A stretch of DNA of 64,000 nt from Planctomycetota bacterium (GTDB lineage: Bacteria; Planctomycetota; Planctomycetia; Pirellulales; Lacipirellulaceae): NCBI GenBank assembly GCA_024278955.1, contig JAJRSE010000061.1, forward strand, positions 1 to 64,000, in the 5' to 3' direction. How positions within the stretch are numbered: position 1 is the first letter of the stretch; each line of letters opens with the position of its first letter. Positions 758 through 4,228 of this stretch are shown here, piece by piece. The notes beneath the pieces were generated by a model. The model saw only the letters and a list, made by a program, of their open reading frames with translations. It had not been told where the DNA came from and did not search any database. Position numbers and translations under genes: made by a program.

Positions 758-2311
758 TTATGTTGTTGCTCCTGGTTGACCCTCGGTGGTTCCCGATTCG
801 ATTCGGTTGATTACGTTGAGGAAAGCCCTGGTGCTGGCCTCTACCGTATCGGTAGAGACTCCTCGACCGCGGTAAATGCGCCCGTTGTATTCGGCCTCGA
901 TAATTGCCTCGCCCTGAGCGTCTTTACCTCGGGTCGAACTTTGCACTCGGAAGTCGGTGACCGTAACGGTTTTTCCGGTCAACTCTTCAATCGCTCGAAA
1001 AAGCACGTCGAGTGGACCGTCGCCGCAACTCATGGTCTTGGTACACTGCTGATCTCCATGAGACAAAGTGAGGGTGGCCGTTGGAGTTTTACCGCTGGTC
1101 GATTGGATTTCGTAAGTCACCAGCTTCCACTGATCGACCGTCTGGGTGTCCTGATGTTCGATCAATGCGGCGATGTCGCCGTCGTAGATATCCTTTTTCT
1201 TGTCGGCAAGATCTTTGAAGTCTTCAAACACCTTGGTGAGCTGCTCGTCGGTGAGATGGAAGCCCAGGGCCTTGGCACGATCGGCCAAAGCAGCGCGGCC
1301 ACTGTGTTTGCCTAAAACGAGGTCGGTTTTGGTGAACCCAACGTCCTCGGGGCGCATGATTTCGTAGGTGGTTCGTTCTTTGAGCATGCCGTCCTGGTGG
1401 ATGCCCGCTTCGTGAGCAAATGCGTTGCGGCCGACGATTGCTTTGTTACGTTGTACCAACATGCCGGTGATACTCGATACCAAACGGCTTGCAGGAACCA
1501 ATCGAGGAGTATTGATTCGAGTCGTAACTTGGTAGTGGTCGCTACGAGTCTGCATGGCCATCACAACTTCCTCCAGCGAGCAGTTGCCCGCTCGTTCGCC
1601 CAAGCCATTGATGGTGCATTCAATTTGCTTCGCCCCGTTCTCGATGGCAGCCAAACTATTGGCGACCGCTAGGCCGAGGTCGTTGTGACAATGAACGCTG
1701 ATGACCGCTTTATCGATATTAGGCACACGGTTGATGAGATCGGAGATCACACCGGCGAAGTGGTTCGGCGTAGCGTAGCCGACCGTGTCGGGGATGTTGA
1801 CGGTCGTGGCACCGGCGTCGATTGCGGCTTCGACAACTTGGCAAAGAAAATCGGCTTCGGTACGAGCAGCGTCTTCGGGCGAGAACTCGATATTATCGCA
1901 GTAGCTCTTAGCCCGTTTAACGCCTTCGACCGCCCGATGAATAATTTCATCTTTGCCCATTCGCAACTTGAATTCGCGATGGATTGCGCTAGTGGCCAAG
2001 AAAACGTGAATACGCACGTCGTCTCCTTGGCAAAGCGATTCCCACGCCCGATCGATATCTGGGTTACGACATCGGGCAAGACCGCAAATGGTTGATCCGG
2101 AGATCGTGTTCGCAATTTCGCGCACCGCCTTGAAGTCGCCAAGCGAGGTGATTGGAAAGCCTGCTTCGATCACATCAACATTCAAATCGGCTAGTGCCTG
2201 GGCGACTTCGAGCTTTTCGCGGAGGTTCATGCTGCAACCGGGCGATTGCTCGCCGTCGCGAAGCGTTGTGTCGAAGATCGTAATCTGCCGCGGCTCGCTT
2301 GAAGTAGGCAT
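758..2311 (-). CDS. leuA: 2-isopropylmalate synthase
   Basis: Condenses acetyl-CoA with 2-oxoisovalerate, the committed step of leucine synthesis in the cytoplasm. The 517-residue length is normal for the family. The HMGL-like TIM barrel fills about 8-280, with the signature DTTLRDGEQSPG at 14-25 and the metal-binding HCHND at 207-211; a GERAGN motif follows near 240. Residues from about 380 to 505 form the LeuA allosteric dimer domain that binds leucine in this family. The gene stands alone: no leuB, leuC or leuD is adjacent. About 70 bases upstream lies a terminator hairpin, preceded by a Leu-rich leader peptide and a promoter, so transcription is probably controlled by attenuation as well as by enzyme feedback. 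Confidence 0.97.
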   Translation of the reverse strand: MPTSSEPRQITIFDTTLRDGEQSPGCSMNLREKLEVAQALADLNVDVIEAGFPITSLGDFKAVREIANTISGSTICGLARCRNPDIDRAWESLCQGDDVRIHVFLATSAIHREFKLRMGKDEIIHRAVEGVKRAKSYCDNIEFSPEDAARTEADFLCQVVEAAIDAGATTVNIPDTVGYATPNHFAGVISDLINRVPNIDKAVISVHCHNDLGLAVANSLAAIENGAKQIECTINGLGERAGNCSLEEVVMAMQTRSDHYQVTTRINTPRLVPASRLVSSITGMLVQRNKAIVGRNAFAHEAGIHQDGMLKERTTYEIMRPEDVGFTKTDLVLGKHSGRAALADRAKALGFHLTDEQLTKVFEDFKDLADKKKDIYDGDIAALIEHQDTQTVDQWKLVTYEIQSTSGKTPTATLTLSHGDQQCTKTMSCGDGPLDVLFRAIEELTGKTVTVTDFRVQSSTRGKDAQGEAIIEAEYNGRIYRGRGVSTDTVEASTRAFLNVINRIESGTTEGQPGATT

Positions 2312-2383: not shown

Positions 2384-2417
2384 AAAAAAAAACCCTGAAG
2401 CCGGTGGGCTCAGGGTT
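2384..2417 (-). terminator. Attenuator terminator hairpin of leuA
   Basis: In the minus direction AACCCTGA (2417-2410) pairs with TCAGGGTT, with an inner GCC/GGC extension around a CACC loop, and the second arm runs into nine T residues. This is a strong intrinsic terminator lying between the leader peptide and leuA. Its first arm can alternatively pair with AGGGTT at 2449-2444. Confidence 0.88.
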
Positions 2418-2447
2418 TTGGTTTCGGTCATCAATGTCCGTACAACC

Positions 2448-2507
2448 CTAAGTCCCGCTCATAGCGAGTTCTAGAAGTAGTAAGGGTAATAGGGACTTGG
2501 CATTCAT
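2448..2507 (-). CDS. leuL: Leucine leader peptide of the leuA attenuator
   Basis: Nineteen codons, MNAKSLLPLLLLELAMSGT, then TAG at 2450-2448. Seven of the nine codons from positions 6 to 14 are leucine (CTA TTA CCC TTA CTA CTT CTA GAA CTC), the hallmark of a leu leader. An AAGGA-like ribosome site lies about 12-15 bases upstream. The leader ends about 30 bases before the terminator hairpin. Codons 4-6 contain AAGTCCC, which is perfectly complementary to GGGACTT at the end of the leader. Ribosome stalling at the Leu run would mask this segment and favour antitermination. The role is inferred from the arrangement; the symbol is used by analogy with enteric leuL. Confidence 0.82.
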   Translation of the reverse strand: MNAKSLLPLLLLELAMSGT

Positions 2508-2561
2508 GTTAGTTTTTAATTCCTTGAAAAGGCGGGGAAAACCACCTTCAGTACGTCTGAC

Positions 2562-2590
2562 ACTTTACTTGACTTGTCGGGCGAGGTCAA
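2562..2590 (-). promoter_or_regulatory. Probable sigma-70 promoter for the leu leader and leuA
   Basis: On the minus strand TTGACC (2590-2585) is followed after exactly 17 bases by TAAAGT (2567-2562). This predicts a start near 2555, about 48 bases ahead of the leader ATG. The -35 matches 5 of 6 consensus bases and the -10 matches 4 of 6. Confidence 0.55.
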
Positions 2591-3082: not shown

Positions 3083-4228
3083 CTATTCGTTACCGCGGCA
3101 GTAAGAGAGGGAGAGGAGCGCATAGCCGGTTACGAGGTTGGGATCGCCTTCGAGCCAGCGCTGGTTGCCGTTGAGCCAGCTGCCGTCTTTCTGTTGTCGG
3201 GCGGCTAGTTCGTCGATGAGTTCTTGTCGCCAATTATGAGGGTTGCCGTTGGCGTCGACGATTTCCTTTTTGCCGGTCGCTTCGAGAGCTTTGGCAAAAG
3301 TGTGCATGTAGTAAAAGAGGCCGCTGTCGCCCATGCCGGGATTTTCTTGCAGAGTGTAATGTTTTTGAACCCAAACCAAGGCGGCTTTGACGCGGGGATC
3401 GTCGGCCGTGACGCCGGCGTAAATCATGCTTTTGAGCCCTGCATAGGTCATTGATCCATAGCTGCGCAAGCCCCCAGCGGCCGTTTCGCCTGCTTGGCTC
3501 GAACCGCCTGCTGCGACGGTATAGTAGAATCCGCCATCGGGGTTCGTGGCAGCAAATTGGGAGTCGTTGTGCTTCGTTTCAAGATTTTGGCAACGTGAAA
3601 CAAAGATCAACGCACGCTTCATCGCGGGATCTTCTTCTCCGCGGCCCATGGCTGCGAGCGCATCGATTAGGTAGTTCGTGTTCGACAAGTCGGGTCTCTG
3701 GTGCTTGCCGTACCCTGCCCCGCCGTAGCTGGTGCTTGAGGGGTCGTGCCCCTCGTCCTCATCCCATTGGATTCCTTTGACAAAGGCTTCGGCACGAGCC
3801 AGGAGAGTGTCGAAGCGGCCATCGCGATTGGCTTCGTTGAAACAGAGAATAGCGAGGCAAGTTTCGTAGTTGCGGTGGCGGCTGCCCCTCTGATAGATGC
3901 CGCCATCGCTGCGTACTTGCTGCTGAAGATAAGCGAGCGACTTGACGATTTTCGGTTCGGCAGGCGAACTGCCGTGGCGGAGCAAGCTCGTCGTGACGAG
4001 CGAAGTAACGCCTGTGCCTGTGGGGCTGCTATAAGAACCGTCAGCAGCCTGGGCGGCATCGAGAAAGGCAATCGCCCGGGCGACAATCGGAGCCAGCTTT
4101 TGATAGTTGGCTGTTTCGGGCTCGGCAGAAACGTCGGCAGCCGAGGCAAGCTGAAAAGTCCAAGCCTGGAATACGAGAACGAGGCAGCAAGAAAGCGTTG
4201 GTATTCTAAGCATTTTTCTGCTCCGCAC
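3083..4228 (-). CDS. Secreted prenyltransferase/squalene-oxidase repeat protein
   Basis: A 381-residue protein with an N-terminal signal peptide: a basic start, a hydrophobic stretch over about 11-25, and a probable cleavage after LASA. The rest is a run of alpha/alpha repeats of the terpenoid-cyclase type, seen as QAADGSYSSPTGTGVTSL, RSDGGIYQRG, YETCLAILCF, PDGGFYYT and QQKDGSW. This fold is shared with squalene cyclases and complement-like domains, but the catalytic DxDD of hopene cyclases is absent. An enzymatic cyclase role is therefore unlikely. Planctomycetes carry many such exported proteins of unknown role. A second ATG at 4213 is an equally good start. Confidence 0.82.
   Translation of the reverse strand: MRSRKMLRIPTLSCCLVLVFQAWTFQLASAADVSAEPETANYQKLAPIVARAIAFLDAAQAADGSYSSPTGTGVTSLVTTSLLRHGSSPAEPKIVKSLAYLQQQVRSDGGIYQRGSRHRNYETCLAILCFNEANRDGRFDTLLARAEAFVKGIQWDEDEGHDPSSTSYGGAGYGKHQRPDLSNTNYLIDALAAMGRGEEDPAMKRALIFVSRCQNLETKHNDSQFAATNPDGGFYYTVAAGGSSQAGETAAGGLRSYGSMTYAGLKSMIYAGVTADDPRVKAALVWVQKHYTLQENPGMGDSGLFYYMHTFAKALEATGKKEIVDANGNPHNWRQELIDELAARQQKDGSWLNGNQRWLEGDPNLVTGYALLSLSYCRGNE

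Follow-up and report, generated by a model that had tools for sequence, protein, structure and literature searches.

How is leuA, the gene for 2-isopropylmalate synthase, controlled in a planctomycete? A preliminary description of the DNA analysed here (the window, the whole stretch of 64,000 nucleotides, from a 4.6 Mb genome assembly) proposed a complete leucine attenuator upstream of this gene, with a promoter, a Leu-rich leader, a T-tailed terminator and three segments able to pair alternatively. We therefore asked which of these parts are present, whether they are conserved, and whether the codons of the leader match the gene that follows.

A candidate leucine attenuator upstream of leuA

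A promoter-like site, a leader ORF and a T-tailed hairpin can be read from the window sequence between 2590 and 2384 of the minus strand. The features of the locus, in window coordinates, are:

2562..2590, minus strand: promoter-like site TTGACC-17-TAAAGT (scan, 9/12 matches; predicted only)
2448..2507, minus strand: leader ORF MNAKSLLPLLLLELAMSGT, 19 codons from ATG 2507 to the stop TAG 2448 (read directly)
2466..2492, minus strand: control codons, 7 Leu of 9 (3 CTA, 2 TTA, CTT, CTC; read directly)
2483..2499, minus strand: region 1, protector arm in the predicted free RNA (fold); includes AAGTCCC 2498-2492
2437..2457, minus strand: region 2, antiterminator 5' arm around the leader stop codon (duplex with the terminator arm); GGGACTTAGGGTT of the preliminary description lies at 2456-2444
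2407..2418, minus strand: region 3, terminator 5' arm and antiterminator 3' arm (duplex and fold); AACCCTGA of the preliminary description lies at 2417-2410
2390..2402, minus strand: region 4, terminator 3' arm (fold)
2384..2392, minus strand: T-run of the predicted intrinsic terminator, nine T, overlapping the end of region 4 (read directly)
758..2311, minus strand: leuA, 2-isopropylmalate synthase (TIGR00973, 725.6 bits, cut-off 598.7)

The scan recovered the promoter-like site exactly where it had been placed. Between 2200 and 2900 there are two such sites, where shuffles average 0.3; transcription would be expected to start near 2555. A second site, TTGACT-16-AAAAAT, lies at 2635-2608, upstream of the TTGACC-17-TAAAGT site. 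The minus-strand sequence also confirmed the 19-codon leader with seven Leu in nine codons, codons 6-14 being CTA TTA CCC TTA CTA CTT CTA GAA CTC. The T-run ending at 2384 and the three short segments first assigned to region 1 (2498-2492), region 2 (2456-2444) and region 3 (2417-2410) were all found at those positions. By sequence, a putative intrinsic terminator thus sits between the leader and leuA.

The Leu leader is conserved upstream of leuA

Is this arrangement found in related genomes? Searches recovered leuA in 265 of 296 genomes (order) and 146 of 294 genomes (phylum). The tallies below cover the fetched loci, which ranked highest by similarity, rather than every genome searched, and the less similar leuA of the order and phylum are therefore under-represented. 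A Leu leader followed by a terminator was present at 30 of 31 fetched loci of the window's family, at 67 of 90 in the order's other families (absent in 23), at 20 of 25 in the class's other orders and at 8 of 48 in the phylum's other classes (absent in 40). Over the whole order, 97 of 121 fetched loci had a leader followed by a hairpin with six or more T in 8. Because this rule misses broken T-runs, the counts are low for Gemmataceae-type loci, and the same applies to the counts from the 209 upstream regions and from the common rule given below. Three of 37 loci labelled as other phyla (one of them too short to judge) had the leader and terminator, all Verrucomicrobia-labelled (L049, L067, L068); this tally omits L032 (Verrucomicrobia-labelled, no Leu leader), L035 (uncultured bacterium, no leader) and planctomycete- or PVC-labelled loci.

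The sequences came from 80 leuA loci in named records and from genomes of the genus, family, order and phylum. Of the 80 named loci, 26 had within 450 nt a micro-ORF in which 5 or more of 9 codons were Leu; mononucleotide shuffles predict 2.95 such loci. In all, we scanned 209 upstream regions (129 + 80, of which 11 belong to a citramalate synthase paralogue) and obtained 120 distinct Leu leaders, 111 of which are followed, 5-80 nt beyond the stop, by a terminator hairpin. These 111, which include 19 from named records (three Verrucomicrobia-labelled), share a narrow layout: the spacing from stop to terminator is 21-67 nt, with quartiles of 30, 34 (median) and 40. The stop is TAG in 88 and lies in TAGGG in 74, and a Shine-Dalgarno-like 4-mer is present in only 21. 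Codon choice in the leaders is distinctive as well: CTA makes up 22.5% of their 823 Leu codons, against 1.3% of 2054 in 57 leuA genes, and TTA 8.6% against 2.5%.

The leaders vary in sequence while the amino acid type of the reading frame stays. When no amino acid was preset, the most repeated residue in ORFs before a terminator was Leu in 121 of 132 and 31 of 35 leuA regions, where shuffles gave 2.8 and 1.2 (198 and 73 regions were read, the denominators being those with a terminator; the sets combine two collections in which a few genomes are present twice). Thus the Leu run, which the preliminary description expected to recur in related leaders, does so, and the swap tests described below extend this to the paired segments.

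Alternative pairings in the leader RNA

The minus-strand leader from 2560 to 2380 folds at -55.2 kcal/mol (z -3.4), and none of 200 shuffles folds as well. Region 2 pairs with the 5' arm of the terminator at -21.3 kcal/mol (z -4.8; 0/100 shuffles as good), and the AGGGTT/AACCCT core first proposed for this 2:3 pairing is an exact complement, as is AAGTCCC/GGGACTT for 1:2. Among the 111 leuA leaders, region 2 extends from about -10 to +10 relative to the leader stop codon, and the 2:3 duplex is better than dinucleotide shuffles in 84 at p<=0.05 and in 63 at p<=0.01 (mean z -2.8). By the same measure 1:2 stands out in only 24 of 111 (p<=0.05), and the 1:2 pairing of the window is no better than its own shuffles (z -0.1, p 0.43).

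On our reading, shuffled Leu codons still pair with the G-rich region 2, and for this reason 1:2 was also examined with a swap test, in which the energy of each leader's own pair is compared with pairs made from other sequences after row and column means are removed. In the 111 leaders, a set selected for neither 2:3 nor 1:2, own pairs were better for both (z -13.3 for 2:3, -10.5 for 1:2), while reversed-sequence controls gave z between -2.2 and -2.9. Thinning for similarity to 77 leaders left z at -10.8 and -8.6, with controls at -1.3 and -1.4.

We also aligned 48 elements, 40 from leuA (of 68 listed) and 8 from citramalate synthase (of 23). All rows were preselected for the hairpin and the 40 leuA rows also for an antiterminator duplex at p<=0.05, so that pairing and covariance-model figures lean upward. 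In this alignment picked for hairpins, the 3:4 terminator helix pairs in 94.6% of cells, and 9 of its 12 pairs carry double changes (42, against 7.3 in shuffles). Fixed-register 2:3 columns were paired in 77.3% of cases against 75.9% when shuffled, and changes on both sides were matched in 46 of 500 shuffles; sliding 2:3 by one column lowered pairing to 63.0% and 45.8%. The 2:3 columns are thus conserved rather than covarying.

Region 1:2 was originally described as a 7-bp helix. The complementarity stands, but the helix predicted in the free full leader is another one, of 15 interrupted pairs between 2499-2483 and 2449-2432: region 2 (2449-2445) pairs with 2487-2483, and CAAGTCC (2499-2493) pairs with the spacer at 2439-2432. 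Among the folds, the AAGTCCC:GGGACTT helix is seen in just one, that of the full-length leader when a ribosome is placed at Leu codon 12 and so does not cover region 1.

Would a stalled ribosome permit 2:3 antitermination, as proposed? When the transcript extends to region 3 and a ribosome is modelled on Leu codon 6, 7, 10 or 12, the fold contains 11 pairs of 2:3; with the ribosome at the stop codon, it contains zero. This part of the proposal holds in the model, but the full leader at equilibrium forms the terminator in every modelled state. Antitermination must therefore be co-transcriptional. Timing is what the model depends on, since 2:3 is also favoured in the free transcript when this ends before region 4.

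Leader codons follow the downstream gene

Is the element confined to leuA? We applied one common rule to all genes, reading 400 nt upstream for eight leader types with a terminator of <= -10 kcal/mol. The 120 leuA loci gave 89 Leu, no Ile and 2 Phe/Tyr/Trp leaders; 50 citramalate synthase loci gave 19 leaders by Ile alone and 23 by Ile and Val counted together, with no Leu and no aromatic leaders; and 50 DAHP synthase loci gave 42 aromatic, 3 Leu and 1 Ile leaders. No leader of the eight types with a terminator was found under this rule at hisG (0/29; one of 30 loci too short), ilvB (0/13; of 14 loci over the family cut-off, L243 was left out as it ends at a contig edge) or trpE (0/13 over the cut-off, weaker paralogues left out). 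For homoserine dehydrogenase, a terminator was present in 2 of 30 loci (two others being almost without upstream sequence), with no Thr-rich leader near one. Leader codon type therefore tracks the product of the downstream gene; the preliminary description was right to place a Leu leader before leuA, but the system extends beyond that gene.

With a covariance model of the 48 elements and 43 family genomes, the window's genome gave two strong matches, leuA (E 1.3e-10) and a paralogue on contig C36 (E 1.5e-8). These are not independent because both sat in the training set of the model. The paralogue is citramalate synthase (curated model, 650.6 bits, cut-off 450), a route to isoleucine, and its leader is Ile-rich, both in the window's genome (MSGAIAIAAIIEGDRS) and in a relative (MPLGIAIIVIIVAGIVPCGRP). 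In the window's genome, this leader and a terminator lie at L082:1232-1351 before the gene, laid out as at leuA. Among 50 citramalate synthase regions read with no amino acid preset, the most repeated residue was Ile in 14 and Val in 4 of the 36 with a terminator, against 0 and 0.2 in shuffles. The swap test on 29 elements supported 2:3 (z -3.3, control -0.5) and did not support 1:2 (z -0.5, control -0.4).

Under the common rule, 27 of the 50 citramalate synthase loci had no Ile/Val leader plus terminator within 400 nt; because of that reading length, the rule missed the more distant attenuators of L277, L278 and L287. At these three loci a small gene lies between the Ile attenuator and citramalate synthase, as if inserted in the leader transcript; that of L278 encodes a four-helix bundle protein (TIGR02436), and those of L277 and L287 are similar by eye. 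A frame of 706 residues with TPR-like matches (L444:654-2771) separates citramalate synthase from an Ile-containing leader and its terminator in one genome.

We opened 12 weaker matches of the covariance model and found an aromatic leader in six (L434, L435, L437, L438, L440, L442), an Ile-containing leader in two (L433, L444) and none in four (L436, L439, L441, L443). One of the aromatic cases, L442 (E 0.0035), is from the window's genome and precedes a gene outside the training set, DAHP synthase (NF006421, 478.1 bits, cut-off 335):

L442:545-703 (contig C125 21144-21302, window's genome): aromatic leader MASASSYFFWFTLTRSFYFRSLGGAGEFV and terminator before DAHP synthase

The covariance score alone does not decide such cases because L443, a weak match in the same genome that has no leader, scored alike (E 0.0039). 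Of 50 DAHP synthase loci of the order, 44 had a terminator, and in 36 it was joined to a leader in which 6 or more of 12 codons specify Phe, Tyr or Trp, where shuffles predict 0.0; all three residues are present in 34 of these 36. For 9 of 20 extra regions the gene start could not be located, and an approximate position took its place. Here region 2 lies inside the leader, mostly at about -30 to -10 of the stop. A first swap test failed for 2:3 (z -1.9, control -3.3); with the interval searched for region 2 widened to -45..+20 of the stop, a range chosen after that result and after inspecting the position of region 2, z was -8.1 for 2:3 and -8.2 for 1:2 (controls -1.8 and 0.0).

Proposed mechanism and alternatives

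How might the leader act? The best explanation, and in our view a very probable one, is a ribosome-mediated transcription attenuator that would tune leuA to charged leucyl-tRNA. RNA polymerase would start near 2555 and a ribosome would follow on the leader ORF. With ample Leu-tRNA, the ribosome would reach TAG 2448 inside region 2 and cover it, so that the 3:4 terminator forms before leuA. With scarce Leu-tRNA, it would stop on the Leu codons and mask region 1; region 2 would stay free, pair with region 3 once that is made, and let transcription continue into leuA. In these genomes, leaders of the same architecture may also serve citramalate synthase, through Ile/Val codons, and DAHP synthase, through codons for Phe, Tyr and Trp. 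We infer that the promoter is active, that the leader is translated, and that stalling, termination and read-through take place; direct support exists for the parts and their conservation, the co-fit of 2:3 and of 1:2, the double changes in 3:4 and the match of codon to product. The original reading as leucine attenuation gains from the conserved leader and terminator, from swap tests with their controls and from the 3:4 changes.

Could the leader act through leuA translation, RNA stability or Rho rather than intrinsic termination, as may hold for the actinobacterial LEU element? At three Gemmataceae-type loci (L028, L031, L348) the Leu leader is followed by a strong hairpin whose T-run is broken, which would fit such a scheme. 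We nevertheless consider it very unlikely: the hairpin of the window carries a nine-T run, 97 of 121 loci of the order combine a leader with at least 6 T in 8, and 72 nt separate the T-run from the leuA start in the window. Less likely still is that the hairpin simply ends a transcript coming from upstream and that the run of Leu codons is incidental coding noise. A same-strand ORF with a squalene-hopene cyclase C-terminal domain does lie upstream, at 3083-4228, in keeping with this reading; yet Leu ORF, stop and terminator recur in many genomes at the narrow spacing given above, the leader codon type follows the downstream gene, and both 2:3 and 1:2 co-fit.

Least probable of all is a riboswitch or T-box type element that senses leucine or tRNA directly, the ORF being untranslated. 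The scarcity of Shine-Dalgarno-like motifs (21/111) would agree with this, but the reading frame retains its amino acid type even as its sequence varies, and no Rfam family matched the leader region of the window at gathering score. Among 11 sub-threshold Rfam matches up to E 10 there is no riboswitch or T-box, nor the leucine operon leader, a family that Rfam includes; the sole amino acid leader is Thr_leader, at 19.7 bits against 55 needed. On these points the three alternatives were set aside in favour of ribosome-mediated attenuation.

Transcription-translation coupling in planctomycetes

Attenuation needs a ribosome close behind RNA polymerase, so the element could be used to test directly whether transcription and translation are coupled in planctomycetes, whose compartments are a matter of debate. 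It has reportedly been claimed that transcription and translation are segregated in Gemmata obscuriglobus. For this species a nuclear body has been reported, with ribosome-like particles inside (PMC3954628), and the accessible part of PMC5147048 contains nothing about transcription-translation coupling.

One Gemmataceae-labelled locus, L030, has a Leu leader, a terminator and an antiterminator duplex (p 0.02). L028 (Gemmataceae) and L031 and L348 (no family label) have a Leu leader and a strong hairpin, CGGCCCCGG..CCGGGGCCG, with the broken T-run noted above. The GC hairpin with an interrupted T-run, e.g. ATTTCGTTT, is also seen at L033, which has only 4 Leu in 9. If Gemmataceae-type leaders work, transcription and translation would be coupled in that lineage.

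A wider proposal can be made tentatively, with somewhat less than an even chance of being right: planctomycetes may use one codon-swappable attenuator as the standard control of committed biosynthetic steps (Leu at leuA, Ile/Val at citramalate synthase, Phe, Tyr and Trp jointly at DAHP synthase), and coupling may be old in the superphylum, even with the claimed membrane-bounded nucleoid. Coupling would be old because the Leu form also occurs in one Gemmataceae-labelled genome and in Verrucomicrobia-labelled ones. Apart from this proposal, the leaders described here would bring classical attenuation to Planctomycetota, and they yield codon-level predictions for three pathways together.

Comparison with known attenuators

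In the leu attenuator (leuL) of E. coli and Salmonella, the leader is rich in Leu and uses rare CTA codons, region 2 falls at its end, and a terminator precedes leuA. By analogy, the planctomycete leuA leader appears to be of this type, being Leu-rich and CTA-rich, with region 2 at the leader end and a predicted terminator before leuA; it differs in belonging to another phylum and in that the window has no match to the Rfam leucine leader. Lopatovskaya and others published a comparative survey of attenuation in 2010, which may include planctomycetes.

In the accessible text of another 2010 survey, leader peptide systems are described as known only in Proteobacteria and Actinobacteria, and Firmicutes are added (PMC2965389); no planctomycete appears there or in the accessible text on the LEU element of Actinobacteria (PMC1262725). 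Elsewhere, leader genes in Planctomycetes were counted for re-initiation, in a text whose accessible part mentions neither leuA nor leucine (PMC4833913). Among the open-access matches listed, no title or start of an abstract names a planctomycete amino acid attenuator; the preliminary description, too, was aware of no account of leu attenuation in this phylum.

According to the part of the source available, the LEU element shares with the planctomycete leader a short ORF with a run of Leu codons before leuA; it is a candidate pseudoknot in which the Leu codons pair with the ribosome site of leuA to form the base stem, and it lacks the other parts of an attenuator (PMC1262725). The planctomycete leader, in contrast, has a T-tailed terminator and a 2:3/3:4 exchange, and a terminator-based structure is supported. 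Staphylococcus aureus has a leucine-rich attenuator peptide that is described, in the accessible text, as controlling branched-chain synthesis (PMC5794164); the leaders are Leu-rich in both, in different phyla. For DAHP synthase, the available text on the aroR leader of Corynebacterium glutamicum reports Phe-Tyr-Phe codons before the gene and attenuation via ribosome stalling (PMC11802643). Planctomycetes likewise have aromatic codons before DAHP synthase, but in longer and mixed runs, and 34 of 36 leaders hold all of Phe, Tyr and Trp. The kind of attenuator is already known; what appears new is its occurrence in this phylum, with an Ile version at citramalate synthase and an aromatic one of three residues at DAHP synthase.
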